From: Veillonella magna DSM 19857
GTDB taxonomy: Bacteria; Bacillota; Negativicutes; Veillonellales; Veillonellaceae
Direction: 5' to 3'
NCBI RefSeq assembly: GCF_000428745.1
Contig: NZ_KE386795.1
Span: 22,692 to 86,691, forward strand
Length of the DNA stretch: 64,000 bases
Shown here: positions 3,390 to 58,623 of the stretch, piece after piece
How the letters are laid out: every line of letters starts with the position of its first letter
Position numbering within the stretch: position 1 is the stretch's first letter
Position numbers and translations under genes: made by a program
Notes under the pieces: model-generated
Database searches by the model: none
What the model saw: the letters and a program-made list of their open reading frames with translations, nothing else
What the model was told of the DNA's origin: nothing

Positions 3390-3405
3390 GTAAGGAGGAG
3401 AACCA

Positions 3406-4308: not shown

Positions 4309-4320
4309 GAGGAAATCACA

Positions 4321-5394
4321 ATGAAAGCGGTACGATTGCACGTAACGCAGCCGGTGGCCCACTATCATCGCGGTGAATCCATTGATAACCGCATGACATA
4401 TCCCTTACCGCAGCCGTCGACCGTCATCGGGGCGTTACATGCGGCGTGTGGGTATAACTCCTATCATCCTATGGATGTGAGTATCCAAGGAAGATTCGGT
4501 TCGTTGCAGAAAGAAATTTTTACGAGCCATTGCTTTTTGAATACAGTTATGGATGACCGTGGTATGTTGGTTAAGGTGCCGAACGGTGAGTTTTTATCCG
4601 GACAATATATTCCGGTAGCCAAGGCAAAGAAATCGCAAGGGAATAGCTTCAAGAAGGGGATTACCATTGACGTTCTTAACGAAGAGCTATTGGAAGAATA
4701 TCGGGCATTGCTGAGAAAAAAGGATGCCTTTGATGAGGAAAAGAAAGGGCGCCTTGCCGATGTATGCAATCCTTTGGAGAAGGAAGCCAAAGAATTACTG
4801 GTAGCGGCTAAGAAAGCAGGCAAAGAAGAAGCGAAGGCGCTAAAAGAAAAAGCAAAGGCATTAAAAGCAGAAGCAAAAGCGTACAAGGATGAGTTTAAGG
4901 ATCGCGAAGAGCGCGAATACACGCTACCGATGAGCTGTTATAAGGATTTAACCACCATTCCTCAGTACTATGAAACCTTGTACGAAGTAGAGCTTGTTAT
5001 TCATGTTCGGGCTGATGAAGACATATTACGCGATATTATGGATCATATAGATAATGTATCATGCATTGGTCGCAGCGAAGATTTTGTTACGATTGAGGAT
5101 TGTCGGATGGTGGAATTATCCATCAACGAAACTGAAAAAGAGATACAATCACCATACACCATGTATGTATATAGTCCTGATTTTGACGAAATCATAAAGG
5201 CAACAGGATATCGTACAAAGTATTATGTATCTAAGGTATATCATCTGGAAGAGAAAACGGGAAAACGTATTTTTTCGAAGGTACCGGTTATACTTACATC
5301 ATCGCCTTCGGTTGATGTTGAATGTGATGAAGACGGACGCACGTTTATTGATATAACGGAAGCAGATATGCCGTTGGTAGTTAATTTTTTATAG
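4321..5394 (+). CDS. cas5: type I-B Cascade subunit Cas5 (Cas5t type) with a Lys/Ala/Glu-rich insert
   Basis: Cas5 caps the crRNA 5' handle in Cascade. Residues 1-45 carry the Cas5 N-terminal strand and the QPSTVIGALHAACGY segment expected of the family. At 357 aa it is far longer than usual Cas5 proteins (about 220-260 aa). The extra length comes from residues 117-198, a charged segment with repeats such as KALKEKAKALKAEAKAYK that should form a long helix or coiled coil. The reading frame is continuous and the flanking Cas5-like parts look intact. The ATG at 4321 has AGGAGGAAAT just before it. A terminator-like hairpin follows the gene. Confidence 0.88.
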   Translation: MKAVRLHVTQPVAHYHRGESIDNRMTYPLPQPSTVIGALHAACGYNSYHPMDVSIQGRFGSLQKEIFTSHCFLNTVMDDRGMLVKVPNGEFLSGQYIPVAKAKKSQGNSFKKGITIDVLNEELLEEYRALLRKKDAFDEEKKGRLADVCNPLEKEAKELLVAAKKAGKEEAKALKEKAKALKAEAKAYKDEFKDREEREYTLPMSCYKDLTTIPQYYETLYEVELVIHVRADEDILRDIMDHIDNVSCIGRSEDFVTIEDCRMVELSINETEKEIQSPYTMYVYSPDFDEIIKATGYRTKYYVSKVYHLEEKTGKRIFSKVPVILTSSPSVDVECDEDGRTFIDITEADMPLVVNFL

Positions 5395-5410
5395 CAGTGA
5401 CCGGTTAGTT

Positions 5411-5457
5411 CGCCGTTATGGCACGTTGATTAATGGCGTGTCATGCGGCGATTTTTT
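5411..5457 (+). terminator. terminator-like hairpin between cas5 and cas3
   Basis: CGCCG at 5411 and the CGGCG ending at 5450 frame an imperfect stem (GGCACG opposite CGTGTC inside), followed by ATTTTTTAG. It lies 17 bp after the cas5 stop and 18 bp before cas3. It may reduce read-through from the Cascade genes into cas3 and the adaptation genes. Confidence 0.6.
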
Positions 5458-5474
5458 AGTATTGAGGAGTCGGT

Positions 5475-8147
5475 ATGGAGATAACAATAGCAAATAATGT
5501 ACGCATGGATATTGATGTATTGTTCGAACGGCTATGCGAAGCCATTGCCACGGAAGAATTGTCACACTACTATGCAAAAGGTAAAGGACGTGGCACTCAC
5601 GATACTACGGCTTGGCAATCATTAAGGAGTCACCTGAAAGCAGTGGCAAGTAAAGCGAAGCAATTAATAGAGATTGGCGTACTTCCCGATGGCACAATGG
5701 AGATTGTTGCAGGAAAAGGACAAACAGTGTATAAAAAGCATCCGGCGCTTATCGTTCTTTTGGCTGCTTTTTTCCACGACATGGGAAAATGTAATGAACA
5801 GTTTCAAGAACGGGTTAAAAGTCAGAAGAAGACATATTTTAACAGTGCAGAAGAATTGCCCCACAATTATTTGTCTATTTTTTGTACTCGCCAAGCGATA
5901 GACGGTGTGTATGCATTGGAGGATGCTGAATGGCAGGATTTAGTGTATGCGATAGCGCATCATCACTTTCTCTTTGATGACATGGCTAAACGCATTGATA
6001 AGAGTGCCGTTTTAGAAGAGGTTAAAGAAAAGTTTTTACAGCAATTCTGCGCAAAGGCAACAAAAGTAAAAAAGAGAACGCTACGGGATGGTCTTGATCG
6101 TACTAATGTAAAAATTCCCATTGAAATTTGGAATTATCGCGATTATATTACGGGACTGCTCATGTTATGTGATTATGCGGCCAGCGGCGATCGAGAGGTA
6201 GCTTACGCCAATGAATTTTTGGAAGAGACCATGGAGCATGTGGTGACAACGTGGCGAGAAAAAAATCCGGACGCCGAATGGAACGACTTACAGCGATATT
6301 GTAAAGATCATCGCAATGCGAATGTCATGATTACCGGTGAAACGGGGATGGGAAAGACGGAAGGTGCACTTTTATGGATTGGCAATGAGAAGGGGCTATT
6401 CTTTCTGCCGCTACGTACAGCGATTAATGCAATTCATAATCGTGTGGTGGAATATGTAACGGCATATTACCGCTCCAAAGGATATGAAGACTATCGGCAA
6501 CGTGTGCATGAGAGCACATCATTACTTCACTCTACCGGTTTATATCACTTGATGAAGACGGAAATCGAGGAGAGTCAAGAAGTAGACATGGCTGCATCGA
6601 ATGCGTCGGAACTCTTTTATGAATTACTGGAGTGGCGTGAACGAGCTAAACAATTTTCATTGCCCCTAATTATATCTACGGTTGACCAGCTCTTTGACTT
6701 TGTATTTCGCTTAAAAGGGTACCAGCGAAAAATGGCAACCGTAGCTATTTCTAAAGTAGTAATTGATGAAATTCAGATGTATGACCCCAGACTGTTGGCC
6801 TATTTAATTTACGGTTTGGAGTGTGCCGTGCAATTAGGAGGAAAAGTCGCTATCATAACAGCGACTATGCCACCATTCATTCGCGATTTATTGGTACAGC
6901 ATATACCCTTTGACGGGGTAGATACCGAACCGGGACGTATTGTTGATGGTCGTAGACAGCTTCATGCACTAGGAAACCCGTCGTTTTTCAAAGCAAAGCC
7001 ACCGCGCCATTCGGTATGCATACGACCTTGTAAGATCTCGGCCGAGGATATTTTGACTTGTTATCGTCGAAACGAAACGAAGGGTAACAGCAATAAAATT
7101 TTAGTTATATGTAATACCATTGCCGATGCACAGCGTATGTATATTACTTTGCGCCAAGAAGTGGGTGAGGCGGTATCTATTTTTCACAGTCGGTTTACCG
7201 GTGTCGATCGAGCTAAAAAAGAAAGCCAGATTATGTCCTTTGGCAGGACGGAGCATAGTGGATCCGGCATTTGGGTAACGACTTCGATTTGTGAAGCCTC
7301 GCTAGACATTGACTTTGATGTATTGTTTACGGAGTTATCTTATATAACATCGTTATTGCAGCGATTGGGACGGTGTAATCGGAAAGGCAATAAGCCGATT
7401 GATGTATGTAATTGTTATATTTATACGGACATTGAAGATGCCTATTTAACAGAGTCGTACGAGGCAGGCGACAGGAAAAAGGGATTCATCGACCGAGATT
7501 TGTATGAAGCGTCGAAGGACGTATTGTTAACACTCGTGGATGATACGATGGATCCGTGTTCTATCGGAGTGTGTGCGGGCATACCGATGACGGAAGAAGA
7601 AAAATTAGCCTGGATTGAGACGGCATTCACCATGGATAGGGTGAAGGACAGTCGATTTATGAAGGCATATCGCGAGGAATATAGCGCGATACGAAACGGT
7701 GAGCTGGCCATTATTAAGAGTACAAATGATACGCCTGATGCAGTGATGGCGCGCAAGCTGCGGGATATTGATTCTATTGATGTGATTCCCGAAAAGGAAA
7801 TTCTCTGTCATGACAGCCTTGATACCGATACATATGCGGCTATGGAGGCGGCCAAAGAGGTCCTTAATGATGGCAATGCTTCGGCAGCGGATAAGGAACG
7901 AGCAAGGCAAACTATTCAGCAGCATACCGTATCGGTACCGGGGAGTATTCGGTATCCAAGAAAAGATGGTACATTGGCAATAAGTAAATTATGTTATGAG
8001 GTTACACCGTATTGGAAAATTCCCAGAACCACACTGTACTATGACAATACCATTGGTTTAATTATGAAGGATGATATAGCTAGCGCCTATGAGGCTATGC
8101 TATCTCATACCGACGATGAAGCAAGCGGGAGAAATAATATGCTGTAA
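5475..8147 (+). CDS. cas3: CRISPR-associated helicase-nuclease Cas3 (HD + DExD/H helicase)
   Basis: An 890-aa fusion of an N-terminal HD nuclease and a superfamily-2 helicase, the enzyme that Cascade recruits to unwind and degrade target DNA. Visible motifs: FFHDMGKCNEQF with the HD pair at 101-102, further histidines in AIAHHHF (near 160-165), Walker A GETGMGKTE at 288-296, the Walker B box as DEIQ at 431-434 rather than DEAH, TAT at 462-464, and QRLGRCNRKG as motif VI in the C-terminal RecA lobe. ATG at 5475 follows TTGAGGAGT. The hairpin upstream suggests semi-separate expression from cas6-cas5. Confidence 0.95.
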   Translation: MEITIANNVRMDIDVLFERLCEAIATEELSHYYAKGKGRGTHDTTAWQSLRSHLKAVASKAKQLIEIGVLPDGTMEIVAGKGQTVYKKHPALIVLLAAFFHDMGKCNEQFQERVKSQKKTYFNSAEELPHNYLSIFCTRQAIDGVYALEDAEWQDLVYAIAHHHFLFDDMAKRIDKSAVLEEVKEKFLQQFCAKATKVKKRTLRDGLDRTNVKIPIEIWNYRDYITGLLMLCDYAASGDREVAYANEFLEETMEHVVTTWREKNPDAEWNDLQRYCKDHRNANVMITGETGMGKTEGALLWIGNEKGLFFLPLRTAINAIHNRVVEYVTAYYRSKGYEDYRQRVHESTSLLHSTGLYHLMKTEIEESQEVDMAASNASELFYELLEWRERAKQFSLPLIISTVDQLFDFVFRLKGYQRKMATVAISKVVIDEIQMYDPRLLAYLIYGLECAVQLGGKVAIITATMPPFIRDLLVQHIPFDGVDTEPGRIVDGRRQLHALGNPSFFKAKPPRHSVCIRPCKISAEDILTCYRRNETKGNSNKILVICNTIADAQRMYITLRQEVGEAVSIFHSRFTGVDRAKKESQIMSFGRTEHSGSGIWVTTSICEASLDIDFDVLFTELSYITSLLQRLGRCNRKGNKPIDVCNCYIYTDIEDAYLTESYEAGDRKKGFIDRDLYEASKDVLLTLVDDTMDPCSIGVCAGIPMTEEEKLAWIETAFTMDRVKDSRFMKAYREEYSAIRNGELAIIKSTNDTPDAVMARKLRDIDSIDVIPEKEILCHDSLDTDTYAAMEAAKEVLNDGNASAADKERARQTIQQHTVSVPGSIRYPRKDGTLAISKLCYEVTPYWKIPRTTLYYDNTIGLIMKDDIASAYEAMLSHTDDEASGRNNML

Positions 8148-8167
8148 GCGCAGGGAGGTGAACGGTG

Positions 8168-8671
8168 ATGAGTACATCGAATATACGGGTTACCGGCGTT
8201 ATGCTTTACTACTATCTGGTGTGCCCGCGTAAGCTTTGGTATTTTGCTAACGGAATTACATTGGAGCAAGATAATGAATTGGTACAAATCGGGCGCGTTA
8301 TCGATGAACAAACTTTTGCCAAAGAGGATAAGCATATCGAGATTGATGCGGTGATTAACATTGATTTTATTAAATCTAAGAAGGAGATTCACGAAGTAAA
8401 GAAAAGTCGTGCGGTGGAAGAGGCATCTATTTGGCAAATCAAATATTATTTGTATTATTTGAAAGAGCGCGGCGCTACAGGCCTTAGTGGTGTCATTAAT
8501 TACCCGTTATTAAAAAAGAAAGAATACGTCACATTGACAGCGGATGATGAGCAGGTGCTTGACGATATGCTGGTAGATATTCGGCGTATTGTGACAGACA
8601 CGAAACCACCGGAGCTAACAACTAAAAAAATTTGTAACGCCTGTGCGTACTATGATTTGTGCTATTTGTAA
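8168..8671 (+). CDS. cas4: CRISPR adaptation exonuclease Cas4
   Basis: Cas4 is an Fe-S RecB-like nuclease that trims and PAM-selects prespacers with Cas1-Cas2. Here the first cysteine is in LVCPRKLWYFANG near the N-terminus and the other three are in the C-terminal ICNACAYYDLC, the usual cluster arrangement. The nuclease core shows EIDAVI, then EIHEVKKSR. Length (167 aa) is normal. I prefer the ATG at 8168, nine bases after AGGGAGG; a GTG at 8165 in the same frame is possible. Cas1 starts 11 bp after the stop. Confidence 0.92.
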   Translation: MSTSNIRVTGVMLYYYLVCPRKLWYFANGITLEQDNELVQIGRVIDEQTFAKEDKHIEIDAVINIDFIKSKKEIHEVKKSRAVEEASIWQIKYYLYYLKERGATGLSGVINYPLLKKKEYVTLTADDEQVLDDMLVDIRRIVTDTKPPELTTKKICNACAYYDLCYL

Positions 8672-8682
8672 GAGGTGGGATT

Positions 8683-9675
8683 ATGAAACAGAGCTTTTAC
8701 ATCTATTCGGCAGGGCGCTTGGAACGTAAGGATAATACGGTTCACTTTGTAACGGCAGAAGGCAAGGGGAGATACCTTCCTATTGAAACGATTAGTGATT
8801 TATATATTATGGGAGAAGTAGATGTTAACAGTCGGTGTTTAAACTTTCTGGGGGCAGCTAATGTGGCCGTTCATTTTTTTAATTATTATAGCTTTTATAC
8901 AGGTTCTTTTTATCCGCGAGAAAAACAAGTAGCAGGAAAATTATTGGTTAAACAGGTGGAGCATTACCAAGAAGCAGATAAACGATTGACCTTGGCTAAG
9001 GCGTTTGTTCAAGGGGCTATGGACAGTATGTATAGAAATCTACGCTATTACAACAGTCGCGGTAAGGATGTGTCATCTATGATGGGAGAAATAAAAGCGA
9101 TGGAAAGACCATTGTCGCGGGCCATAACAATTCAAGAGGTTATGGGCTGTGAGGGGATGGCACGTAAAGCATATTACAGCGCATGGAATACCATCGTAGA
9201 TCAAGAAATTAATTTTACGAAACGAGAAAAACGGCCACCGACTACTATGATTAACTCCCTGATATCATACGTTAATATGTTGATTTACACGAAGGCACTA
9301 GGCGAAATATATCATACAGCACTAAATCCGACGATTAGCTATTTACATGAGCCGGGAGAGAGACGCTTTTCTTTGTGCCTTGATATTACGGAAATATTTA
9401 AGCCACTTATCGGTGATCGTTTGATTTTCCGTCTGCTAAACAAGAAGCAGATTACGCAGAAAAGTTTTACGGAGGGACTAAATTACCTGCATCTGAAGCC
9501 TGAAGCATCACGGCTGATTGCCGGTGAACTGGAGGAAAGCTTGAAGAAAACTATTATGCATAAGGACTTGGGTCGCCAGGTATCTTATCAATATTTGATG
9601 CGGTTGGAATGCTTTAAGTTAACGAAGCATTTTATTGGTGAAAAGAATTACGAGCCCTTTGTTATCTGGTGGTAG
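8683..9675 (+). CDS. cas1: CRISPR integrase Cas1
   Basis: Cas1 is the metal-dependent integrase that inserts new spacers. The expected catalytic residues are seen: Glu in GCEGMARKAYY, His in ISYLHEPGE, and Asp in LCLDITEIFKP. An upstream in-frame start (8659) would overlap cas4, but AAGAGGTGGG at 8670-8679 points to the ATG at 8683 (330 aa, normal length). It lies directly before cas2, as is usual for type I-B. Confidence 0.96.
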   Translation: MKQSFYIYSAGRLERKDNTVHFVTAEGKGRYLPIETISDLYIMGEVDVNSRCLNFLGAANVAVHFFNYYSFYTGSFYPREKQVAGKLLVKQVEHYQEADKRLTLAKAFVQGAMDSMYRNLRYYNSRGKDVSSMMGEIKAMERPLSRAITIQEVMGCEGMARKAYYSAWNTIVDQEINFTKREKRPPTTMINSLISYVNMLIYTKALGEIYHTALNPTISYLHEPGERRFSLCLDITEIFKPLIGDRLIFRLLNKKQITQKSFTEGLNYLHLKPEASRLIAGELEESLKKTIMHKDLGRQVSYQYLMRLECFKLTKHFIGEKNYEPFVIWW

Positions 9676-35329: not shown

Positions 35330-35397
35330 TGAGTTGCAATTATTTATCATTTAAGTAGCAAGGCTGTTTGTGAGTGTCTTGCATAGGAGGTGTAGTT

Positions 35398-35631
35398 ATG
35401 GCTACGAAGACATTGGCACAGATGAAACCAAATGATGAAGGGATCATCGTTGCTCTTCGTGGTACCGGCAACATCAAGCATCGTCTTATCGATATGGGAC
35501 TGGTGCCGGGGACGAAGGTTCGTGTGATGAAGTTTGCTCCTTTGGGGGATCCGGTGGAGATTAAAGTTAAAAACTTTGATTTAGCACTGCGTGTAAGTGA
35601 GGCAGCAACAATAGATGTAGAGGCTGATTAG
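35398..35631 (+). CDS. feoA: ferrous iron transport protein FeoA
   Basis: A 77-aa SH3-like cytoplasmic protein that supports FeoB. MKPNDEGIIVALRGTGNIKHRLIDMGLVPGTKVRVMKFAP spans the standard FeoA core. The ATG at 35398 follows a strong GGAGGTG; a GTG at 35374 in frame is rejected because it would put that binding site inside the gene. FeoB begins 11 bp after the stop. Confidence 0.95.
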   Translation: MATKTLAQMKPNDEGIIVALRGTGNIKHRLIDMGLVPGTKVRVMKFAPLGDPVEIKVKNFDLALRVSEAATIDVEAD

Positions 35632-35642
35632 GAGGAAGTGTA

Positions 35643-38036
35643 ATGGCAGACAGTAAGGCCAACAGCATCCGGATTGCGTTAGCCGGCAACCCGAACTGCG
35701 GCAAGACTACTATTTTTAACAATATAACAGGTTCTAAACAGCATGTGGGTAACTATCCCGGTGTAACTGTTGAAAAGAAGGAAGGCGAATGTACCTATAA
35801 AGGACAAGAGATGATGCTCATCGACTTGCCGGGGACGTACAGCTTAACGGCACGGTCACTAGATGAATTAGTGGCTCGTAATACAATTATTAACGACGAA
35901 CCGGATGTAATCATCAATGTATTGGATGCATCCAACCTCGAACGAAATTTATATTTAGCGGCACAGCTCTTAGAATTAGAACGCCCTTTGGTTATGGCCC
36001 TTAATATGGCGGACGTAGCTAAGGAAATGGGCATTGATATCGACATCAGAAAATTGAGCGAAATGACCGGTGCCACAATTGTCAGCACGGTAGGCAGAAA
36101 TAATGTAGGAACTAAGGACCTACTTGATGCTGTTATCGATGTAGCAAGAGAGCAAAAGAAACCGGGTATTACCATTAATTACGGTGATGTACTGGAACCG
36201 GCTATTCAAGAGTTGGTAGCAGAAATCGAAAAGGCCGGTAGTATTACGTATCCGATTCGTTGGGTGGCTATTAAGCTGCTTGAAAATGATGCGGATGTAG
36301 CTAAAAAGGTACGGGTCTTTGAAAATACGGAGAGGGTATTAGCTAAGGCTGAAGAGCTTCGTAACACATTGAAAGATAAGGTGGATTTGGAAGTTGTATT
36401 CCAAGAATTCCGTCACCGTTATGCAGTAGCTACGTATACGGCTTCTCTTAAGGGGGAAGCAAAAATGCAGGATACCCAGTCTGATAAGTTAGATAAAATT
36501 TTGACACATCGAGTATTGGGGCTTCCGATTTTCCTTTTTGTTATGTGGCTCATGTTTAACTTAGTTAATGAAATCGGTGCCTATCCGCAGGGCTGGATTG
36601 AAGATGGTGTGGCAGCGTTGGGAGAATGGGCGAAGACCGTTATTCCGGCCGGACAATTACAATCGTTGGTTGTTGACGGGATTATCGGTGGTGTTGGTGC
36701 CGTTCTTAGCTTTGTACCGTTGATTGTCTTGTTATTCTTAGGCATCTCCTTCTTGGAGGACACTGGATATATGGCACGCGCAGCGTTTGTTATGGACCGT
36801 GTCATGCGTGCGTGCGGTTTACACGGCAAATCCTTTATTCCGTTGCTTCTTGGTTTTGGGTGCAGTATCCCGGCCATTATGGGTGCGCGTATCTTGGATA
36901 ATCGCCGAGATCGGATGATTACGATTCTGGTATCGCAGCTCATGAGCTGCAGTGCTCGCTTGCCGGTATATACTTTGTTTATCGGAGCCTTTTTCCCGGT
37001 TGCGCAGCGAGGGACAGCACTTTTTGCAGTATATATTGCAGGTGTTATTTTGGCCGTTGTTATGTCTAAGATTTTCCGTAAGTTTTTATTCCCCGGCGAA
37101 TCTGAACCGTTTGTTATGGAAATGCCACCGTATCATATGCCTACACTAAAAAATGTATTAATGCATATGTGGGAACGGGCTTGGTTATATATTAAAAAGG
37201 CCGGTACGTTTATTTTGGCTGCATCCGTATTGATTTGGTTCCTGGCCACTTATCCGCAGGATGTTCAATATTCCCAAGACTTTGATGCGGCTCGCGAACA
37301 GGTGACCCAAACGTTTGATGCTAAGGATGATGCGCTGTTAGCTCAGTTCGGTATCAACACATCTGACGGCAAGGATGCTGTTATGGCCATTGTTGATGAA
37401 ATGACGGCAGCTACGGAAGAAGCCGAAGCGGCTGCCGAAGAGGAAGGCGATGATGAAGAGACAGCAACGGCAGAGGAAGTCACTGATGAAAAAACAGTAG
37501 AAGTGCTTGAATATATGTCCTCTATCCGCGCTAACGCTAATGATAAATTCGATGTAGCTTGGGCTATTTATTTGAATAATCAAGAACGTGATGAACAGAT
37601 TAGTCTCTTGGATCAGCAGGAAGCGTCTGAAAAGATTCAAGGCTCCTATGCAGCGATGATTGGTAAAGCGATTGAACCAATTATGAAACCGCTTGGTTTT
37701 GATTGGAAGATGAGTGTATCCTTGGTAACTGCCTTAGCTGCTAAGGAAGTTATGGTAAGTACACTGGGGACGATTTATGCGGTAGCTGCTGATGAAGATA
37801 ATGAAGCACCGCTTCAGGTATATCTCCAGCAGGATCCGTCGTTCAGTCCTTTGGTAGCAGTTGGGTTAATGACGTTTGTTCTTATTTATCCGCCTTGCTT
37901 TGCAGCAATGGCTGTGTTTAAACGTGAAGCCGGCGGATGGAAATGGTTAGCCTTCTTCTTTGTGTATGCTAATGTGTTGGCTTGGGTTTGTACCTTTGCC
38001 GTATATCGCATTGGTTTGCTCATGGGCTTCCATTAA
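35643..38036 (+). CDS. feoB: ferrous iron transporter FeoB
   Basis: A 797-aa membrane transporter with an N-terminal G domain: G1 GNPNCGKTT at 15-23, G3 DLPGTYSL, G4 ALNMADVA. The membrane part contains the two Gate motifs around GISFLEDTGYMARAAFVMDR and GCSIPAIMGARILD. Between membrane segments, at about residues 580-616, lies an acidic stretch (EEAEAAAEEEGDDEETATAEE) not expected in shorter FeoB proteins. The transporter uses the Fur-like promoter upstream of feoA. Confidence 0.96.
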   Translation: MADSKANSIRIALAGNPNCGKTTIFNNITGSKQHVGNYPGVTVEKKEGECTYKGQEMMLIDLPGTYSLTARSLDELVARNTIINDEPDVIINVLDASNLERNLYLAAQLLELERPLVMALNMADVAKEMGIDIDIRKLSEMTGATIVSTVGRNNVGTKDLLDAVIDVAREQKKPGITINYGDVLEPAIQELVAEIEKAGSITYPIRWVAIKLLENDADVAKKVRVFENTERVLAKAEELRNTLKDKVDLEVVFQEFRHRYAVATYTASLKGEAKMQDTQSDKLDKILTHRVLGLPIFLFVMWLMFNLVNEIGAYPQGWIEDGVAALGEWAKTVIPAGQLQSLVVDGIIGGVGAVLSFVPLIVLLFLGISFLEDTGYMARAAFVMDRVMRACGLHGKSFIPLLLGFGCSIPAIMGARILDNRRDRMITILVSQLMSCSARLPVYTLFIGAFFPVAQRGTALFAVYIAGVILAVVMSKIFRKFLFPGESEPFVMEMPPYHMPTLKNVLMHMWERAWLYIKKAGTFILAASVLIWFLATYPQDVQYSQDFDAAREQVTQTFDAKDDALLAQFGINTSDGKDAVMAIVDEMTAATEEAEAAAEEEGDDEETATAEEVTDEKTVEVLEYMSSIRANANDKFDVAWAIYLNNQERDEQISLLDQQEASEKIQGSYAAMIGKAIEPIMKPLGFDWKMSVSLVTALAAKEVMVSTLGTIYAVAADEDNEAPLQVYLQQDPSFSPLVAVGLMTFVLIYPPCFAAMAVFKREAGGWKWLAFFFVYANVLAWVCTFAVYRIGLLMGFH

Positions 38037-38186: not shown

Positions 38187-38369
38187 ATGATGGAAACAAT
38201 GATAGTCTACTTAATCGGGCTTTTGGCAGTGCTGTATGTAGCGAGAAAAGCGTATCGTAGTTGGCAGGGAAAAGGCGGCTGTGGTAGTTGTGGCGGTTGC
38301 GGCGCAAGTAAGGCAGAGTCTTCCTCCGGTTGCGGTGGATGTAGCAGTATGATGGAAGCAAAAAAATAA
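38187..38369 (+). CDS. FeoB-associated Cys-rich membrane protein
   Basis: A 60-aa protein with one N-terminal membrane helix (MIVYLIGLLAVLYVARKAYR) and a Gly/Cys-rich tail with five cysteines (GGCGSCGGCG and SGCGGCSS). It matches the FeoB-associated Cys-rich family that takes the place of FeoC in many Bacillota. Role in iron or Fe-S handling at FeoB is inferred. ATG at 38187 (or 38190) after AGAAAGAAG. A terminator follows at 38428. Confidence 0.85.
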   Translation: MMETMIVYLIGLLAVLYVARKAYRSWQGKGGCGSCGGCGASKAESSSGCGGCSSMMEAKK

Positions 38370-38427
38370 ATGGTAGGATGTTGTTGTTCGTAAGGGTTTG
38401 TATATCTATTGGGTAGTTACAAAGGGG

Positions 38428-38465
38428 GCCGAAGAAGTAAGTGATTATTTCTTCGGCTCTTTTTG
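38428..38465 (+). terminator. terminator of the feo operon
   Basis: GCCGAAGAAGTAA (38428-38440), loop GTGA, TTATTTCTTCGGC (38445-38457), then TCTTTTT. Confidence 0.9.
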
Positions 38466-38538
38466 CTACATATATACATGGGATTTGTTTAAAGCGGGCA
38501 TCTATACTGATGCCAAGTAATGAAAGGTGGTTTTCATA

Positions 38539-38817
38539 ATGATGAAATTCAACAAGAACAAGGTACAAAACGCAAACTTCTTTATGTCCGGATTGGCTTT
38601 AGGCACGTTGGGCCTCAAAGTATTGACCAGTAAGGATGCGCGTAAAGTGTATGCAAATGTTGTAGCGGCAGGATTACGTGCTAAGGAAAGCATTATGCAG
38701 ACAGCAGAAAAAGTACAGGCCAGCAGCGGTGACATTTTAGCGGAAGCTAAAGAAATTAACGAAGCACGCAGTGAAGAGTTGTTTAAAGAAGTTACCGAAG
38801 AAGTAAAGGAAAAATAA
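38539..38817 (+). CDS. small protein of the DUF6110 type, possible ferrosome-associated FezA/FezX analogue
   Basis: A 92-aa protein. NANFFMSGLALGTLGLKVL is a weakly hydrophobic segment (about 13-31), followed by TSKDARKVYANVVAAGLRAK and a charged C-terminal helix. I recognise the pattern as that of DUF6110-like proteins found next to P-type ATPases, though I cannot confirm the family here. ATG at 38539 follows GAAAGGTGG. It is one base from the ATPase gene, so the two form a unit. A role in ferrosome formation is a hypothesis from the neighbours. Confidence 0.6.
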   Translation: MMKFNKNKVQNANFFMSGLALGTLGLKVLTSKDARKVYANVVAAGLRAKESIMQTAEKVQASSGDILAEAKEINEARSEELFKEVTEEVKEK

Positions 38818-38818
38818 T

Positions 38819-40933
38819 ATGATACGCTTTTCTGTAATCAGACGATTGCGCCGCCGGTTGCATGTGAAATGTACAGGGTGGCTATTTACTGATGCACAGG
38901 CTGCTTACATAGAAGAGATGCTGGAACGAACGGACGCTATTGAAAAGGCACAGTTTTTTACACGCTCCGGTGAAGTTGTGGTGGCACATAACGGTGATGA
39001 AGCGGCGGTTAAGGCGGCGATTTTATCTATACGTGATTTGGATTTAACAAAGGCTCCGGCATTAACAGAGTATTCGCCGCGCCTGGTGAACAAGCGTTAT
39101 CGAGAAGATATGATCAATCAAACGCTTTTGTATGTAGGAAAGCGTTTACTTTTACCTATGCCATTGCGTACGGCTTGGTCGTGGGTGAGTGCAGTTAAGT
39201 TTGTTGGCAAGGCTGTAAAAGCCTTGTGGAAACGGCGATTGACAGTGGATGTGTTGGATGGTGTCGCTATTACGGTATCGTTGTTACGTGGGGATGTATC
39301 AACGGCAGGCGCAGTTATGTATTTGCTGGGAATCGGCGAAACCTTGGAAGAATGGACTCTTAGAAAATCCGTTTTAAATTTGGCGGAAAGTATGTCGCTT
39401 AACGTCGATAAAGTGTGGGTAAAGGTTGATGGTACGGAAATCAGTCGTCCTGTAGCCGAAGTAGGCGAAGGTGATTTAGTAGTTTTGCGGCAAGGTGAGG
39501 TTGTGCCTGTTGATGGTGTTGTCGTTGATGGTGTAGTCCTGGTAAATGAAAGTTCTATGACCGGTGAACCTGTACCGGTAAGACGCGATGCGGAATCATC
39601 TGTCTACGCGGGTACGGTAATCGAGGAAGGCGAGTGTACCATCGAAGTGCGAGGGAATTCGAAGAGCTCTCGGTATGAAAAAATCGTAGCACTCATCGAG
39701 GAGTCGGAACAGATGAAGTCAGGTATGGAGCAGAAGGCATTCCACATGGCGGATCGATTAGTTCCCCTCAGCTTTGCCGGCACCCTTTTAACATATTTAC
39801 TAACGCGCAATACTATGAAAGCACTTTCGTTCCTAATGGTGGATTTTTCTTGTGCGCTTAAACTAAGTATTCCGTTGGCGGTACTATCGGCTATGCAAGA
39901 GGCTTCACGACGAGGAATTACGGTGAAGGGCGGTAAATTCCTGGAGCAAATTGCGGCGGCAGATATGGTTGTCTTTGATAAAACTGGAACATTGACGAAA
40001 GCAGAGCCTGTGTTTGAACAGATAATTCCATTTGATGGACGCGATGCGGATGAAATGCTAATGCTCGCTGCTTGTTTGGAAGAGCATTTCCCTCATTCTA
40101 TGGCAAAGGCCGTTGTTAATGCGGCGACACAGCATAACTTACCTCATAAAGAGCTTCACTCTAAGGTGGAATATATTGTAGCGCATGGTATCGCATCGCG
40201 GGTAAGTCGCTATCGATGCCGTATTGGCAGTGCGCATTTTATTTTCGAGGATGAAAAAACAGTTATTCCGGAAGATGAAATAGATAAATTTAATGCACTG
40301 CCCAACACGTCATCCCATCTGTACTTAGCAATTCGCGGTCGCTTGGCAGCGGTTATCTGCATTAAAGATCCGGTGCGCGAAGAAGCGGCACAGGTAGTTC
40401 GCGAACTTCACGAACTGGGTGTAAAAAAAGTGGTTATGATGACCGGCGATAGTAAACGCAATGCGGAACGGGTGGCAGCGGATATTGGTATCGATGAAGT
40501 GTATGCCGAGGTGTTACCCGGTGATAAGGCAGCCTTTGTTAAGCAGGCAAAAGAGGATGGTTATACGGTTATGATGGTTGGCGATGGCATTAACGATTCT
40601 CCGGCACTGTCGGAAGCGCATGTGGGCGTTGCCATGAATGAAGGTGCACCTATTGCACAAAAAATTGCTAACGTCACTATTTCATCGAATAATCTGCAAG
40701 CTCTTGTCGATTTGCGTCGAATTTCCATGGCGTTGATGAAGCGCATTCATTTTAATTACAATTCGATTGTCGGTGTCAACGGTGGCTTAGTAGGACTTGG
40801 TGTATTTGAAATATTGACACCGAGTACTACGGCATGGCTGCATAATTTATTTACGCTGGGAATAGGATTACGGAGTATGACTCCGTTGCTACCGGATACT
40901 TGCGCTGAACAAAATAGAGAGGTTAACCGGTAA
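38819..40933 (+). CDS. P1B-type metal ATPase, FezB-like candidate
   Basis: A 704-aa heavy-metal P-type ATPase. ATPase motifs: SSMTGEPVPV, phosphorylation site VFDKTGTLTKAE (Asp 387), HFPHSMAKAV and MVGDGINDSPALSEA. The membrane metal site is DFSCALKLSIP (Cys 345) rather than CPC, which excludes ordinary copper pumps. The N-terminus is unusual: MIRFSVIRRLRRRLHVK is Arg-rich and leads into an HMA2-like domain without CxxC. P1B-6 ATPases with an Arg-rich N-terminus (FezB) build iron storage organelles called ferrosomes in other anaerobes. Location just behind feoAB supports iron as the metal; the assignment remains inference. Confidence 0.75.
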   Translation: MIRFSVIRRLRRRLHVKCTGWLFTDAQAAYIEEMLERTDAIEKAQFFTRSGEVVVAHNGDEAAVKAAILSIRDLDLTKAPALTEYSPRLVNKRYREDMINQTLLYVGKRLLLPMPLRTAWSWVSAVKFVGKAVKALWKRRLTVDVLDGVAITVSLLRGDVSTAGAVMYLLGIGETLEEWTLRKSVLNLAESMSLNVDKVWVKVDGTEISRPVAEVGEGDLVVLRQGEVVPVDGVVVDGVVLVNESSMTGEPVPVRRDAESSVYAGTVIEEGECTIEVRGNSKSSRYEKIVALIEESEQMKSGMEQKAFHMADRLVPLSFAGTLLTYLLTRNTMKALSFLMVDFSCALKLSIPLAVLSAMQEASRRGITVKGGKFLEQIAAADMVVFDKTGTLTKAEPVFEQIIPFDGRDADEMLMLAACLEEHFPHSMAKAVVNAATQHNLPHKELHSKVEYIVAHGIASRVSRYRCRIGSAHFIFEDEKTVIPEDEIDKFNALPNTSSHLYLAIRGRLAAVICIKDPVREEAAQVVRELHELGVKKVVMMTGDSKRNAERVAADIGIDEVYAEVLPGDKAAFVKQAKEDGYTVMMVGDGINDSPALSEAHVGVAMNEGAPIAQKIANVTISSNNLQALVDLRRISMALMKRIHFNYNSIVGVNGGLVGLGVFEILTPSTTAWLHNLFTLGIGLRSMTPLLPDTCAEQNREVNR

Positions 40934-40990: not shown

Positions 40991-41079
40991 TATGTGTTAT
41001 GCTTGTCTGGGAGCCATAGATATAGTAGAATGAGAAGAGTTGAGTTTGCATGACGAGTATGTATGACAAGGGGGTTATC

Positions 41080-41481
41080 ATGAAGGTTCTTACCGACATA
41101 TTAGGACGGACGCTATTCATGAGCTTTTTTATTATTTTATTGCCCATAGGTGCGTATACCATACACAATGGATCGAGTGCGATGGCAGCCGCGTTTAGCT
41201 ATGCGGTACTGTCCGTGTGTATTCCTTTTTTTTATCTTACTTCATCGCGTAGTGGCTTTGGCCCGGCAGAAAAACGCGCTAATCGTTGGGTGTATATCTT
41301 AATGTGGTTTCTCATTCAAGTAGGCACATATGGAATTTTTATGGCCTTTGATTTAACGTGGTTGTGGGAATTACCGACTATCGGCCGTGATATTGTCTTT
41401 ATACTGATCATGTATTGTCAGGTGGCGATGGGACTGTGGCTGGCGTATGGTGTTTCCGGTTTAGTAAGAGGTGAACAGTAA
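41080..41481 (+). CDS. membrane protein of unknown function (about four helices)
   Basis: A 133-aa protein with hydrophobic stretches around FMSFFIILLPIGAYTI, FSYAVLSVCIPFFYL, WVYILMWFLIQVGTYGIF and IVFILIMYCQVAMGLWLAYG. I do not recognise the family. The ATG at 41080 follows AAGGGGG; an upstream in-frame ATG (41050) has no binding site. Its stop codon overlaps the next start by one base (TAATG), so the pair is translationally coupled and probably forms one complex. Confidence 0.7.
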   Translation: MKVLTDILGRTLFMSFFIILLPIGAYTIHNGSSAMAAAFSYAVLSVCIPFFYLTSSRSGFGPAEKRANRWVYILMWFLIQVGTYGIFMAFDLTWLWELPTIGRDIVFILIMYCQVAMGLWLAYGVSGLVRGEQ

Positions 41482-42380
41482 TGGTGCAAGGTATGCTGCG
41501 ATTTAGTGCACTGTCGGCGTTGGGATGTATTCCCTTTTCTCTGCTGGCCGGTATGGGGCATTTAACAGGTACATCCGTGTTGGTGTTTGTGCTATTGGCA
41601 CTGGTTGTGCCGGTGTTGGTATATCGTAATATGCATGTACGCTTAGGCATGGAGTTTCCTTGGCGCACAGGAATGTATGTATATAGCTGGTTGGGGTGGA
41701 ATGTATTTTTCCTAGCCGGTAATGGCTTGGTACCTTTATCGGTCACGTTAACAGCACCGTGGCAGATTACGATTGTGTGGGCAGCGGTGATGCTACTGGC
41801 TATTGTGCTAATGGTAGGAACAGCTTCACTGTTAACGGCGTTTTTTAATCGACCGCGCCAATTTGGATTGGTTGATGAAACACTGGATATTGCGGTGTAT
41901 AGTTTACCTTTGCCTATGCTGCTGCTTGGTGATTTATTGGTGCTGGACGTAAGTGACCCGTTGGTAGCCATGCAAATCAGCAACACTGTGTTTGGTATGC
42001 TGGCTCTTGTTGTGTATGCACTGGTGATCTTGACGATGGCTACGATTGCTTTGTATTTATATCCGCGGCACGGAGAGAATAAGGCCGTTAGGTTATGTCG
42101 TATTTTGGTTACGGCTGCAGTATGGTTGGCTATTAACGGCCATATGCTATACGGCTGGAAGCCAGAGTGGTCATATATGGTGCTTGATTTCTTGCTTCCG
42201 GTATTCCGTGGTAGCTATTTAGTATATGTAACGCCCGGCCTTTTTGAAGTTGTTGTACTATATATTTCTATGTGGCTTGGCAGATGGGTAGAAACTATTT
42301 GGGAGCGTAGACAAAATCAGAAAGAAAAGATAGCCAATGTAGACATCATTATGCCATCTAAAAATAATAATGATAAGTGA
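41481..42380 (+). CDS. membrane protein of unknown function (multi-pass)
   Basis: A 299-aa protein with about eight hydrophobic segments, among them VLVFVLLALVVPVLVY, IVWAAVMLLAIVLMVGT and MLALVVYALVILTMATIALYL, and a short charged C-terminus. No family is recognised. It is coupled to the gene before it. The pair lies between the iron region and an ECF S component but shares no visible regulatory site with either. Confidence 0.7.
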   Translation: MVQGMLRFSALSALGCIPFSLLAGMGHLTGTSVLVFVLLALVVPVLVYRNMHVRLGMEFPWRTGMYVYSWLGWNVFFLAGNGLVPLSVTLTAPWQITIVWAAVMLLAIVLMVGTASLLTAFFNRPRQFGLVDETLDIAVYSLPLPMLLLGDLLVLDVSDPLVAMQISNTVFGMLALVVYALVILTMATIALYLYPRHGENKAVRLCRILVTAAVWLAINGHMLYGWKPEWSYMVLDFLLPVFRGSYLVYVTPGLFEVVVLYISMWLGRWVETIWERRQNQKEKIANVDIIMPSKNNNDK

Positions 42381-53391: not shown

Positions 53392-54930
53392 ATGAAGCGA
53401 GTTTCATTTATAGATTTGGGTTCTAACTCCGTACGATTTGTAATTATGGAAATTGCAGATAACGGTAGTTATCAGTTGATTTATCAACAGAAGGAGAGTA
53501 TCCGCCTAAGCGAGAATATGTGGACACATAACCGTCTTACGGAAGAGGCGATTCAACGTGCGTTGAGTAGTATGAAAGCCTTTTCTCATATGGCAGAGGC
53601 GATGGACAGTCATGAAATTTACGCGGTTGCGACGGCAGCGGTGCGGTTAGCGCATAACGGCGGTGAATTTATCGATCGGGTAAAAGAAGAAACAGGAATT
53701 GATTTGGTTTGTATCAGCGGTGAGGAGGAAGCGCATCTTGGGTTCCTCGGTGTCATTAACACAATCGGTTTACGAGATTTTGTGTTGTTTGACTTGGGCG
53801 GTGCCAGCGTGGAAGTGACATTGGTACGAGATAGACAGGCTTTGCGATCGGTTAGTCTTCCCATGGGGGCACTAACATTAACCGGTAAATTTCAAAGTGG
53901 TAAAGAGATGTCCGGTGAAGAGCGGCTGCGCATGCAAGCATATATTCAGGAGCTGTTGTCGGATGAAGAATGGCTAGCCGGAGTGGGATTACCTTTGGTA
54001 GGTATCGGCGGTACGGCACGTAACCTAGCAAAGATGGACCAGCGTGCTCATGAATATCCTATAGCCAAACTTCATAATTACGAATTGACGAGAGAGCGGT
54101 TGGAGGCTATTTATCGTCAAGTATGTAATAAAACATTGGCACAGCGGCGCAAGATTTCAGGATTATCACAGGAACGGGCCGACATTATTATTGCCGGTAC
54201 GGCATTAATCATGGAATTGATGGATTACACCAAAGCATCAGCTATGCGTGTTAGCGGATGTGGTTTACGTGAAGGTTTGTTTTATCGATATTACGGCGAG
54301 AATTTCATGAATCCTGACGGTATCATTGATAATATTTTGCTTCATTCGGCAGAAAATGTATTGTTGGGAATGCCGCAAAACGATTTGATTCACGCGAAAT
54401 ACATTGCACGTTTAACGGATATGCTCTACGAGCAGTGGCAAAGTTTGCACGGCGGTGATGATCGAATGCGCGAACTGCTCCGGGTAGCTGCGCTACTGCA
54501 TGATATCGGTAAACGAATTAATTATTACAGCCATGCGCGGCATAGTGCGTATATGATTGTCAACAGTAATTTGTATGGAATCTCCCATTACGAACAAGCA
54601 ATGTGCTCTTTTATGGCCGCCGATTCTCACGGAGCTAATAGCAAATATATGAAGACTAGTCCTTATGGTCGTCTGCTCAGTGATGATGACAAAGGTGTGG
54701 TACATCGTATATCTATGATGTTGGCGCTGGCGGAGGCCATTGATGAAAGCCATGAACAGGCTACCGTGTCTGTATCGACAGTCATCAAGGACGACGCGGT
54801 AGAGTTGACTGTATGGACTAAGCATGGTGTAAATACATCGATTGCGGAAGTGGCAGTTAATAAATTGTTGAAGCAATTTAAGAAAGAATACAAGAGAACA
54901 TTACATGTTAAATGGTGCGAAGCCTTGTAA
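53392..54930 (+). CDS. ppx: exopolyphosphatase / guanosine pentaphosphatase (Ppx/GppA) with HD domain
   Basis: A 512-aa protein. The N-terminal ASKHA-fold phosphatase has the expected loops: FIDLGSNSVRFVI (8-20), ISGEEEAHLGF with the catalytic Glu region (108-118), FDLGGASVEV (133-142) and LVGIGGTARNLAK. A C-terminal HD domain follows: ALLHDIGKRINYYSHARHSAYMI (His 370-Asp 371). It should degrade polyphosphate or pppGpp. It starts a three-gene operon with the paralog at 54943 (12 bp away) and ppk1. ATG at 53392 after TAGGGGGATG. Confidence 0.92.
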   Translation: MKRVSFIDLGSNSVRFVIMEIADNGSYQLIYQQKESIRLSENMWTHNRLTEEAIQRALSSMKAFSHMAEAMDSHEIYAVATAAVRLAHNGGEFIDRVKEETGIDLVCISGEEEAHLGFLGVINTIGLRDFVLFDLGGASVEVTLVRDRQALRSVSLPMGALTLTGKFQSGKEMSGEERLRMQAYIQELLSDEEWLAGVGLPLVGIGGTARNLAKMDQRAHEYPIAKLHNYELTRERLEAIYRQVCNKTLAQRRKISGLSQERADIIIAGTALIMELMDYTKASAMRVSGCGLREGLFYRYYGENFMNPDGIIDNILLHSAENVLLGMPQNDLIHAKYIARLTDMLYEQWQSLHGGDDRMRELLRVAALLHDIGKRINYYSHARHSAYMIVNSNLYGISHYEQAMCSFMAADSHGANSKYMKTSPYGRLLSDDDKGVVHRISMMLALAEAIDESHEQATVSVSTVIKDDAVELTVWTKHGVNTSIAEVAVNKLLKQFKKEYKRTLHVKWCEAL

Positions 54931-54942
54931 GGAGGTAACGAT

Positions 54943-56496
54943 ATGGCCTTACAAAAGCCCTTGCTTTACGGAATTTTACATCTGGGAGCAAGTAGTATGA
55001 GTATGACTATCGTTGAATACACAACGTTAGACCAAGTAAAAATAATCGAATATGCCAGTCGTGATGTTACGTTTGGGGAAGAACTGTTTCAGAATCATCG
55101 CCTTTCCTTTGACACGATTGAAGAAATTTGTCGTGTGTTGAAGGGATATAAACGATTGATGAAGGAGTACGGCGTAACGGAGTATAAGGTGTATGGCACG
55201 GCGATTGTTCGAGAAGCAGATAATAGAAGAAGTATTCTGGATCAGATTTTTATCCAAACCGGATTTACCGTTGAAGTTGTGGATATGCCGAAAGAAATTT
55301 ATTATAAATACTTTGGACTGTACTATCATATGACAAAGGAAGGGTTTACCGATACAAAGGATGCTGCTTTGTTTTTGGATATCACTTCGGGCGGTGTAGG
55401 CATCACTGTATGGCAAGGCGGTGCTATGCTCTTTCAAGAAAATGTACATATCGGTACCTTGCGTGTTATGGAATCGTTTAATCGGAATCAAAGATCGTCG
55501 TTATCGTTTCCTGATGCGGTAGGCGAATACCTTTATAGCATGTTATCGCCGGTGCGTGATGAAGTAAGTCGTTTTAATGTAAAATATGTTATTTTGTCCG
55601 GGGACGAAGCAAAACAAATTGCGCGCCTAATGGGTGTTGAGTCTTCGGGAGCAAGAGGAACGGTAGCTATGCTGCCACAACAATTCAATCAATTTGTGGA
55701 TTCCTTTCACGGTGTCACCTCTACAAAACTGATGAATCGTTTCGGCTTACCGGAACACCGCGCTAATATTTTGATGCCTACATTGGTTCTGTATCATGAA
55801 ATATTAAAAATGGTTCACGCTCAAACGTTACTTATCAGTTCATCCGGTTTTGTTAACGGAGTTACTTTGTACTATGGAGCGGAAGTAGAAAATCATCCGT
55901 TTTTATATATGTTGCGTGAACAAAATGTACAACTGGCACGATCGGTAGCACAACGATATCATGTGGATGAGACGCATGCTCGGGAAGCAGAACGGTTTGG
56001 GCTGCAGATTTGTGATGCCTTACGGGATCATGGAATTACAACGCGTATGGCATTTTTATTACGTATAGCAGCCATTCTTTCGGAAGTAGGTAAGTATGTA
56101 AGTCTGCGCAATCACAGTGAACACGGTTATCACATCGTAATGGGAACGGATATTTTCGGACTTTCCGATCGAGAAAAGGAAATTGTGGCCAATGTTGTGT
56201 ATTATCAATATAAGGGAACGCCCGGTGATGACGATGATAATTTTAGGCGCCTTAGAGAATTACAAAAAATTTGTGTCACAAAATTAGTGGCTATTTTACG
56301 TATAGCACGGGCATTGGATGCTAGTCATAAGCATAAGATTGAACGTATTTCATTACATCGCCGTGATAGCAACATCGTGGTAGAAGCCGTAGCACAAGAG
56401 GATGTATCTCTGGAAAAATGGACCTTTGCCCGAGAAGCCGACTATTTCAGCGAAGTGTTCGGCTTATCTATCAAGCTTAAGATTGGAGGCAGATAA
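54943..56496 (+). CDS. Ppx/GppA-HD paralog with degenerate active sites
   Basis: A 517-aa protein of the same two-domain layout as its neighbour, but the conserved residues are altered. Loop 1 is LHLGASSMSM (His for Asp), the GEEEA loop is replaced by VDMPKEIYYKY (112-123), and the second phosphate loop reads LDITSGGVGI in place of DLGGASVEV. The HD pair of the second domain reads SEVGKYVSLRNHSEHG. The frame is intact and the ribosome binding site strong (AAGGAGGT), so it is not a decayed gene. A regulatory partner of Ppx or Ppk, or a binding protein, is more likely than an enzyme. Confidence 0.85.
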   Translation: MALQKPLLYGILHLGASSMSMTIVEYTTLDQVKIIEYASRDVTFGEELFQNHRLSFDTIEEICRVLKGYKRLMKEYGVTEYKVYGTAIVREADNRRSILDQIFIQTGFTVEVVDMPKEIYYKYFGLYYHMTKEGFTDTKDAALFLDITSGGVGITVWQGGAMLFQENVHIGTLRVMESFNRNQRSSLSFPDAVGEYLYSMLSPVRDEVSRFNVKYVILSGDEAKQIARLMGVESSGARGTVAMLPQQFNQFVDSFHGVTSTKLMNRFGLPEHRANILMPTLVLYHEILKMVHAQTLLISSSGFVNGVTLYYGAEVENHPFLYMLREQNVQLARSVAQRYHVDETHAREAERFGLQICDALRDHGITTRMAFLLRIAAILSEVGKYVSLRNHSEHGYHIVMGTDIFGLSDREKEIVANVVYYQYKGTPGDDDDNFRRLRELQKICVTKLVAILRIARALDASHKHKIERISLHRRDSNIVVEAVAQEDVSLEKWTFAREADYFSEVFGLSIKLKIGGR

Positions 56497-56499
56497 GGG

Positions 56500-58623
56500 A
56501 TGTTTACCAATTCGAAATATTATTTTAATCGTGAATTATCCTGGTTAAAGTTTAATCAGCGGGTATTGCAGGAAGCCATCGACAAATCAAATCCACTTAT
56601 GGAAAAATTACGCTTCATTGCTATTACCAGTTCTAACCTGGATGAATTTTTTATGATTCGCGTAGCCGGATTGAGACATCAGGAGGCTAATGGCATTGTT
56701 CGTTACGATGCGGCTCATATGGATGCGAAAGCACAACTCAAGGCAATTGATGAATCGGCTAAGCGCCTAGTGCGCGTACAATATACCTATTTGCGTAATG
56801 TGTTGAGTGCCTTGGAAAAGGAAGGTTTATATTTTGTTACGCCTCAGGACTTAACGGAGAAACAGCAGGCATGGCTGCGAACGTATTTTGAACGAGAGGT
56901 ATATCCTGTAGTAACTCCGTTGGCTGTTGATTCGGGTCACCCGTTTCCGTTCTTGGCAAACAAGACGATGAATACAGTAGTTACGATTCGACATCGTGAG
57001 GGACGTAAAAATAGCACAGTAAATGAAAAAATTGCTATCTTGCCGATACCTTCTGTATTGAATCGCATTGTAGAGCTTCCGTCAGTAGATAAAAATAAAC
57101 GTCAGTTTATGTATTTGGAAGATATCATTACCTATTATGCCGATGCATTTTTTATGGGACACGAAATTGTCAACTCCATGACATTTCGAGTGACTCGTGA
57201 TGCGGATTTGGAAATTGATGAAGAGGAAGCAAAGGACCTTTTGCGGGAAATGGAAGAGTCCCTGCGACGTCGTCGACGGGGGGAAGCTGTTCGCTTGGAA
57301 GTTATGGGGGAAGGTAATAAAGACCTATTGCAATTCATTTTGAACAGTCTTCGTTTACAACCGGGCGATGTATATGAAGTAGGCGGCCATTTAGATTTAT
57401 GCATGTATTTTGGGTTTTGCGATATGCCGGGCTATGAGCATTTACGTTATAAGCCTTTTGAATCGTGCGAACCGGCCGAACTGGTAGGGCATGAGGGAGA
57501 ACGCATTTTTTCAGTAATTCGTCAGGGGGATATCTTCGTTCATCATCCTTTTGAAACGTTTAGGGTAGTAGAAGACTTTGTGGCACAAGCGGCTAACGAT
57601 CCGGATGTGTTGGCCATTAAGCAAACATTGTACCGCGTTAGCGGTGATTCGCCGATTATTTCTTCGTTGGTTAAGGCGGCGGATAATGGCAAACAGGTAA
57701 CGGTTCTTATGGAGGTTAAGGCTCGGTTTGATGAAGCTAATAATATATTAATGGCACGGCGCTTGGAAAAAGCAGGATGCCATGTAATCTATGGCTTGAA
57801 GGGGCTTAAAACACATTCGAAAATTACTATGGTCGTACGTCGTGAAGATGATGTTATTCGTCGTTATGTGCATTTGGCAACAGGGAACTATAATGGGAAA
57901 ACAGCGCGTATGTATACGGACTGTGGGATTTTCACCTGTAATGATGAATACGGCGAAGATGCGTCGGCTTTCTTTAATTTAATTTCCGGCTATTCGGATC
58001 CGCCGATTTGGAATAAATTTATTGTGGCGCCATTAAATCTTCGTGAAAAAATTATGGCAAATATTGATGAAGAAATTGCTTGGGCGGAACGCGGCGAGGA
58101 AGCGTATATCATTGCAAAAATGAATTCGTTACTGGATAAAAAAGTAATTGCTAAGTTGTATGAAGCTTCTTCAAAGGGTGTTACTATTGATTTGATTGTA
58201 CGAGGTATCTGTACATTGCGTCCAGGAATCCCCGGAGTCAGCGAAAATATTCGGGTGCGATCTGTTGTGGGACGTTTTTTGGAGCACCACCGATTATTTT
58301 ACTTCCGCCATGGCGGTAAAGACAGCACATTTTTATCAAGTGCTGATTGGATGCCACGTAATTTAAACGATCGTGTGGAACTAATGATACCTATCGAAGA
58401 AAAACGTCATAAGGATCGCATACGTCGTATTTTGGATTTATACCTAGCGGATAATACAAAGGCGCATGTCATGCGTGCCGATGGTTCTTATCGAAAATTG
58501 GTTACTAAAGAAGATGGTATTAGCGTACAGAAAACGCTGATGAAGGATGCCTTGAAAGCAGTGGAGAAACCATCCATGACAGTTATAGAACGAATGCAAC
58601 CGATGATGAAATCGGACAAATAA
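56500..58623 (+). CDS. ppk1: polyphosphate kinase 1
   Basis: A 707-aa kinase that polymerises the gamma-phosphate of ATP into polyphosphate. YYFNRELSWLKFNQRVLQEA is the N-terminal signature; the two phospholipase-D-like halves carry GLKTHSKITMVVRRE (autophosphorylated His) and LEHHRLFYFRHGGKD. KQTLYRVSGDSPI and ATGNYNGKTARMYTD are also conserved. It follows the second ppx paralog by 3 bp, so synthesis and breakdown of polyphosphate are expressed together. Confidence 0.96.
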   Translation: MFTNSKYYFNRELSWLKFNQRVLQEAIDKSNPLMEKLRFIAITSSNLDEFFMIRVAGLRHQEANGIVRYDAAHMDAKAQLKAIDESAKRLVRVQYTYLRNVLSALEKEGLYFVTPQDLTEKQQAWLRTYFEREVYPVVTPLAVDSGHPFPFLANKTMNTVVTIRHREGRKNSTVNEKIAILPIPSVLNRIVELPSVDKNKRQFMYLEDIITYYADAFFMGHEIVNSMTFRVTRDADLEIDEEEAKDLLREMEESLRRRRRGEAVRLEVMGEGNKDLLQFILNSLRLQPGDVYEVGGHLDLCMYFGFCDMPGYEHLRYKPFESCEPAELVGHEGERIFSVIRQGDIFVHHPFETFRVVEDFVAQAANDPDVLAIKQTLYRVSGDSPIISSLVKAADNGKQVTVLMEVKARFDEANNILMARRLEKAGCHVIYGLKGLKTHSKITMVVRREDDVIRRYVHLATGNYNGKTARMYTDCGIFTCNDEYGEDASAFFNLISGYSDPPIWNKFIVAPLNLREKIMANIDEEIAWAERGEEAYIIAKMNSLLDKKVIAKLYEASSKGVTIDLIVRGICTLRPGIPGVSENIRVRSVVGRFLEHHRLFYFRHGGKDSTFLSSADWMPRNLNDRVELMIPIEEKRHKDRIRRILDLYLADNTKAHVMRADGSYRKLVTKEDGISVQKTLMKDALKAVEKPSMTVIERMQPMMKSDK

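Follow-up and report, generated by a model that had tools for sequence, protein, structure and literature searches.

Does the gene pair that follows the ferrous iron uptake genes of Veillonella magna DSM 19857 encode a system for storing iron in ferrosomes, or a metal pump of another kind? Few bacteria have been experimentally shown to make ferrosomes, and their presence in further pathogens or commensals is listed among the questions to be addressed in a 2025 review (PMC12574912). We analyzed a window of 64,000 nucleotides, the whole stretch of DNA presented above, in which a first-pass annotation had placed a candidate fez-like pair at 38539–40933, made up of a gene for a 92-aa protein and one for a P1B ATPase with SCA instead of CPC. 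Both ORFs were re-read, and these coordinates are correct. The locus contains the following features.

35374–35631, + strand: feoA, with a FeoA domain (PF04023, E=4.6e-21); the first gene of the block, kept in 13 family loci
35643–38036, + strand: feoB, ferrous iron transporter (PF02421, PF07670, and PF07664; TIGR00437, E=1e-189)
38187–38369, + strand: gene for a FeoB-associated Cys-rich membrane protein (PF12669, E=1.1e-7, above the cut-off)
38420–38465, + strand: terminator-like hairpin in the gap that separates the pair from the feo genes (21 pairs, a 4-nt loop, and a U-run inside the 3' arm)
38539–38817, + strand: fezA-like gene for a DUF6110 protein of 92 aa (PF19605, E=3.1e-24)
38819–40933, + strand: fezB-like gene for a P1B-6-type ATPase of 704 aa (E1-E2_ATPase and HAD domains; TIGR01525, E=4e-142)
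38834–38869, + strand: Arg-rich N-terminal motif VIRRLRRRLHVK, ATPase residues 6–17, from the translation
39848–39856, + strand: SCA motif in TM4 of the ATPase, residues 344–346, in place of CPC (VDFSCALKL)
40841–40846, + strand: HN motif in TM6 of the ATPase, residues 675–676, invariant in 27 relatives

The fezB-like ORF runs from ATG 38819 to the stop at 40933 and begins 1 base past the stop of the DUF6110 gene, which starts at ATG 38539 or 38542 and, ending at 38817, encodes 92 or 91 aa. The pair had been described as lying behind a feo operon; it does come directly after feoA, feoB, and the FeoB-associated gene, but its membership of the same operon is unclear, as the hairpin intervenes.

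SCA is the motif of P1B-6 ATPases, and an Arg-rich N-terminal motif instead of CxxC is described as defining FezB. Both are present in the window ATPase, as the first-pass annotation had read them: TM4 has SCA where CPC would otherwise stand, and the Arg-rich stretch at residues 6–17 includes RRLRRRLH (residues 8–15), of which R13 is invariant in the 27 relatives, with no CxxC in the first 120 residues. SCA is likewise invariant in the alignment of the relatives, as is HN in TM6, which has been given as a P1B6 feature (PMC9374683). An HMA2-like domain without CxxC had also been claimed; the absence of CxxC stands, but the domain itself is weakly visible in the window protein (HMA_2, E=0.21, below the cut-off). 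The HMA_2 family is matched at E≤0.1 by 13 of the 27 relatives (best 1.7e-8), and the AlphaFold2 model of the window ATPase (mean pLDDT 80) has a predicted strand-strand-helix-strand-strand-helix domain at residues 3–73, ahead of the P1B pump. Fold searches with the whole model gave P1B ATPases as the best solved relatives (top 7r0g, Z 32.0, rmsd 7.3, 596 aligned), which confirms the P1B architecture only; a sequence search of the PDB for a solved P1B-6 ATPase structure found none.

To which pumps the ATPase is related was examined in a 76-row tree and in a 33-row bootstrap tree, the latter including the P1B-4 pump 7qbz, E. coli ZntA and CopA, and CtpC-like (DUF1490-linked) pumps from Mycolicibacterium and Rhodococcus. 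In the 33-row tree, the SCA ATPases make up one side of a branch with support 99/98, which excludes ZntA, CopA, the P1B-4 pump (sCoaT), and the CtpC-like pumps, these last forming a separate CPC clade. The outcome that had been named as speaking against a FezB assignment, a grouping with zinc, cobalt, or manganese exporters, is thus not what the tree gives. The window ATPase falls in a 7-row group (100/99) with its own family, Clostridioides difficile, Coprococcus comes, and Faecalibacterium prausnitzii, and a Desulfovibrio and a Mailhella relative with DUF6110-like partners are also in the SCA clade. With a P1B core, SCA in TM4, HN in TM6, and a position apart from P1B-1, -2, and -4, the window ATPase has the features of a P1B-6 pump.

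Some variation in TM4 was seen among other ATPases. Two from Clostridia (L075 and L082) have CCA (VDFCCALKL) instead of SCA, and a sister P1B clade from cyanobacteria, Obscuribacterales, and Rhodospirillales (L107, L108, L110, and L115) has a TM4 motif without cysteine, such as DYGTGIRV or DFMTGIRV. SCA ATPases also occur in Methanobrevibacter and Methanovirga (L086–L090), some of them with a DUF6110-like partner, and gut methanogens may, judging by these genes, contain ferrosome-type pairs.

In a scan of named genomes, the pair was located in C. difficile strain HC132 (L070), where the DUF6110 protein has 131 aa and the SCA ATPase encoded after it has 699 aa. An ungapped alignment of 692 residues gives 49% identity between the window and C. 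difficile ATPases, and the small proteins in the fezA position are 44% identical over 68 aa, DILAEAKEINE included; the HC132 genome encodes one ATPase of the SCA type (best match 50%, next 31%). The fezAB genes of C. difficile are CD630_05910-05920 (PMC11651100), the products of which are an ATPase and a hypothetical protein; they are upregulated at low iron and in a fur mutant, and a Fur box is marked for CD630_05920 (PMC6311696). Gene order, uniqueness, and annotation together argue strongly that the L070 genes are C. difficile fezA and fezB. Since ferrosomes in C. difficile require FezA and FezB (PMC12574912), the window ATPase would be an orthologue of a ferrosome-required ATPase, the identity of the C. 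difficile locus being drawn from its gene order and the literature. The tree and the gene order support the window ATPase as a P1B-6-type (SCA) pump orthologous to C. difficile FezB, and the proposal of a fez-like gene pair is upheld by the shared clade and by the DUF6110 partner.

That partner is a small DUF6110 membrane protein encoded directly upstream of the ATPase, which is the arrangement of FezA. It has a single membrane helix, marked by the pattern G(x)3G(x)2G, and a long helix containing DILAEAKEIN, and its model (mean pLDDT 79) predicts a membrane-length helix at residues 5–28 and a long helix at residues 31–90. PF19605 is matched by 18 of 18 ATPase partner proteins. Among 57 SCA ATPases for which 450 bp or more of upstream sequence was available, at least 52 have a DUF6110 gene directly upstream, versus 2 of 38 other P1B ATPases; a 53rd is that of L097, where an over-long ORF call hid the partner in the count. 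Both of the non-SCA ATPases with a DUF6110-type neighbor are mycobacterial, and mycobacteria are the group with known DUF1490 partners. The occurrence of DUF6110 beside P1B6 ATPases has already been noted, together with its relationship to DUF1490/PacL, and DUF6110 has been proposed to assist P1B6 ATPases in platform assembly (PMC9374683).

This relationship suggests the main alternative function for the pair, namely a plasma-membrane Fe(II) efflux platform against iron overload, in which the DUF6110 protein would cluster the ATPase without forming organelles, much as PacL1 clusters and stabilizes CtpC (PMC9374683, PMC13043812). We regard such a platform as unlikely: the window small protein does match DUF1490, weakly and under the cut-off (E=4e-4), and a ferritin is available in the genome for storage, but the C. 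difficile orthologues rise in iron starvation and in a fur mutant, the reverse of an overload exporter (PMC6311696), and are required for ferrosomes (PMC12574912). Moreover, the bacterial ATPases known to export Fe(II) are assigned to P1B-4 (PMC7762939), and the CtpC-like pumps lie in their separate CPC clade.

The ferrosome reading also draws on where the pair occurs. Every one of the 28 genomes sampled from the window's family has the ATPase and its partner, versus none of the 33 others of its order. Phylum-wide they are rare: DUF6110 was detected in 5 of 199 genomes, and 6 of 299 gave a match to the ATPase at E≤1e-100. The order feoA, feoB, FeoB-associated gene, DUF6110 gene, ATPase gene was found in all 14 loci inspected (the window and 13 relatives, from four genera), and because it is the same in all 13 family loci, the feo linkage is old within the family. 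Outside the family, feoB is nearby in 5 of 32 SCA loci versus 1 of 31 other P1B loci (p=0.11), so that feo proximity in distant SCA relatives is suggestive and not significant. Viral contigs yielded no relatives, and plasmids yielded none above 60% identity.

If the adjacency to feoAB were incidental, the pump could instead serve another metal, such as zinc, manganese, or cobalt. The sequence gives no certain substrate, and feo proximity in the distant relatives is non-significant when taken alone, but TM4 has SCA, neither CPC nor SPC, the tree sets the ATPase apart from ZntA, sCoaT, and the CtpC-like pumps, and the feo linkage is kept family-wide. The genome, moreover, already encodes two other P1B ATPases, both with CPC and CxxC, which group with P1B-1 and P1B-2 pumps. 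A different metal seems quite improbable.

Immediately after the pair, at 41050–42380, the window encodes two adjoining membrane proteins, 143 and 299 aa long, neither of which matches a Pfam family above the cut-off. Their genes come after the pair in almost every family locus, including those of a genus in which the next gene, for an ECF transporter, was not found, and they could either be additional components of the system or reflect synteny alone. The genome also encodes LpxC (E=5e-97) and so looks like that of a diderm member of the Bacillota; taken with the layout of the order, this suggests Negativicutes and probably Veillonellaceae, and the relatives searched at phylum level include Clostridia-type genomes.

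The gap between the uptake genes and the pair has a strong predicted structure, with an RNA fold of 38400–38540 at -49 kcal/mol (z=-6.57), and the hairpin at 38420–38465 was not listed by a simple terminator scan. By inspection, inverted repeats of differing sequence occupy the same position between the feo and DUF6110 genes in most family loci (L043–L050 and L053–L055), and this common position suggests that attenuation or processing of the transcript at the junction of the uptake genes and the fez pair is conserved. When Fur boxes were sought with TGATAATNATTATCA, allowing up to 3 mismatches, the window had 3 matches versus 7.3 expected. Upstream of feoA there is a family-conserved AT-rich block, TGATAATnnTTrTTGA, which is not enriched genome-wide (61 versus 64 in the control). 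Upstream of the pair there was no convincing Fur box, nor any above chance before feoA. The pair may be co-expressed with feo; the fuller scenario, in which it is read through from the feo promoter past the hairpin, Feo import directly feeds the organelles, and ferrosomes are a trait of the whole family, is possible but rather unlikely.

Two motifs resembling the block before feoA (2 mismatches each) lie 85 bp apart before a rubrerythrin-like gene elsewhere in the genome (L174 and L175; G000:C2 near 134877–134977). These copies are possible Fur or PerR sites.

Other genes of the genome also bear on iron storage. An FtnA-like ferritin is encoded, which rules out the pair as the only iron store, and because ferritin is present, storage is not an unmet need. 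A PF00210 match is absent from 3 of the 28 family genomes, all three of which have the pair. The polyphosphate genes ppx, ppx-like, and ppk1 were confirmed at 53392–58623 as two tandem Ppx/GppA-type proteins followed by polyphosphate kinase 1; the suggested link between these genes and the pair is unsupported, as they lie 12.5 kb downstream with many unrelated genes between. A search for the FezC cytochrome (DUF4405-like), as expected of a Desulfovibrio-type ferrosome system, gave no match at the locus and two sub-threshold matches elsewhere in the genome; for C. difficile ferrosomes, no component beyond FezA and FezB is described as necessary (PMC12574912). At 1104–9675, the window contains what by reading appears to be a type I CRISPR-Cas operon-like region (Cas6, Cas8, Cas7, Cas5, Cas3, and Cas1-like).

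We consider it probable that the two genes form a fezAB-type pair involved in ferrosome-type storage of iron in internal membrane compartments. The FezB-like P1B-6 ATPase would drive the export of a transition metal, most likely Fe(II), from the cytosol across a membrane at the expense of ATP, and the destination could be an internal compartment or the cell exterior, which are topologically alike. The FezA-like DUF6110 protein, which combines a glycine-patterned helix in the membrane with a second, long helix, probably clusters and stabilizes the pump, as PacL1 does for CtpC. Based on orthology with C. difficile, the clustered pumps, presumably located in vesicle membranes, would load iron into ferrosomes, to be kept for later iron shortage. 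Storage is favored over efflux because C. difficile needs the orthologous pair for its ferrosomes and induces it when iron is short, whereas an overload exporter would behave in the opposite way, and because the family pair sits with ferrous uptake genes; its placement behind feoAB would fit storage supplied by the uptake system. Counted against the ferrosome reading are the presence of ferritin, the hairpin before the pair, the lack of a convincing Fur box, the absence of a FezC match above the cut-off, and the fact that PacL1, the relative of DUF6110 studied in most detail, serves an exporter.

On the evidence of its genes, the window pair adds a well-supported case to the known fezAB/P1B6-DUF6110 pairs, and both its presence and its place next to feoAB are fixed in one bacterial family. 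Iron-granule organelles in the window's family are now testable, and the distribution (28 of 28 family genomes versus none of 33 in the rest of the order) provides a clean candidate set with sister-group controls. The feo-linked arrangement is relevant to the question of how ferrosomes acquire their iron, and to whether DUF6110 and DUF1490 proteins build organelles or efflux platforms.

The locus can be compared with four known systems. Proteobacterial SCA ATPase clusters (an Azospirillum plasmid record, Rhodomicrobium, and Hahella) share an SCA ATPase of the same wider clade; in Azospirillum, the neighboring genes encode an HMA2 protein, a cation transporter, and a YtxH protein, and DUF6110 was looked for beside the Rhodomicrobium and Hahella ATPases and was not found. 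The mycobacterial PacL1 (DUF1490)-CtpC zinc efflux platform also has a gene for a small one-helix membrane protein just before that of a P1B ATPase with HN in TM6. However, CtpC has CPC in TM4 and belongs to a separate clade, and the C-terminal metal-binding motif of PacL1 is absent from DUF6110 proteins; the window pair, with SCA and a sub-cut-off DUF1490 match, does not have the CPC motif and DUF1490 partner of such a platform. C. difficile fezA-fezB (CD630_05920-05910, in this order) resembles the window pair in having a DUF6110 gene followed by an SCA ATPase gene, HN in TM6, and an Arg-rich N-terminus without CxxC. It differs in its neighbors, a nitroreductase and a TetR gene, whereas the pair of the window's family lies behind feoAB and the FeoB-associated gene, and the small C. 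difficile protein has a tail of ~40 residues that is absent from its window counterpart. The window pair belongs with the P1B6 ATPase and DUF6110 pairs of Firmicutes, archaea, and others (PMC9374683), from which no functional difference was seen; in the window's family, the linkage to feo is fixed.
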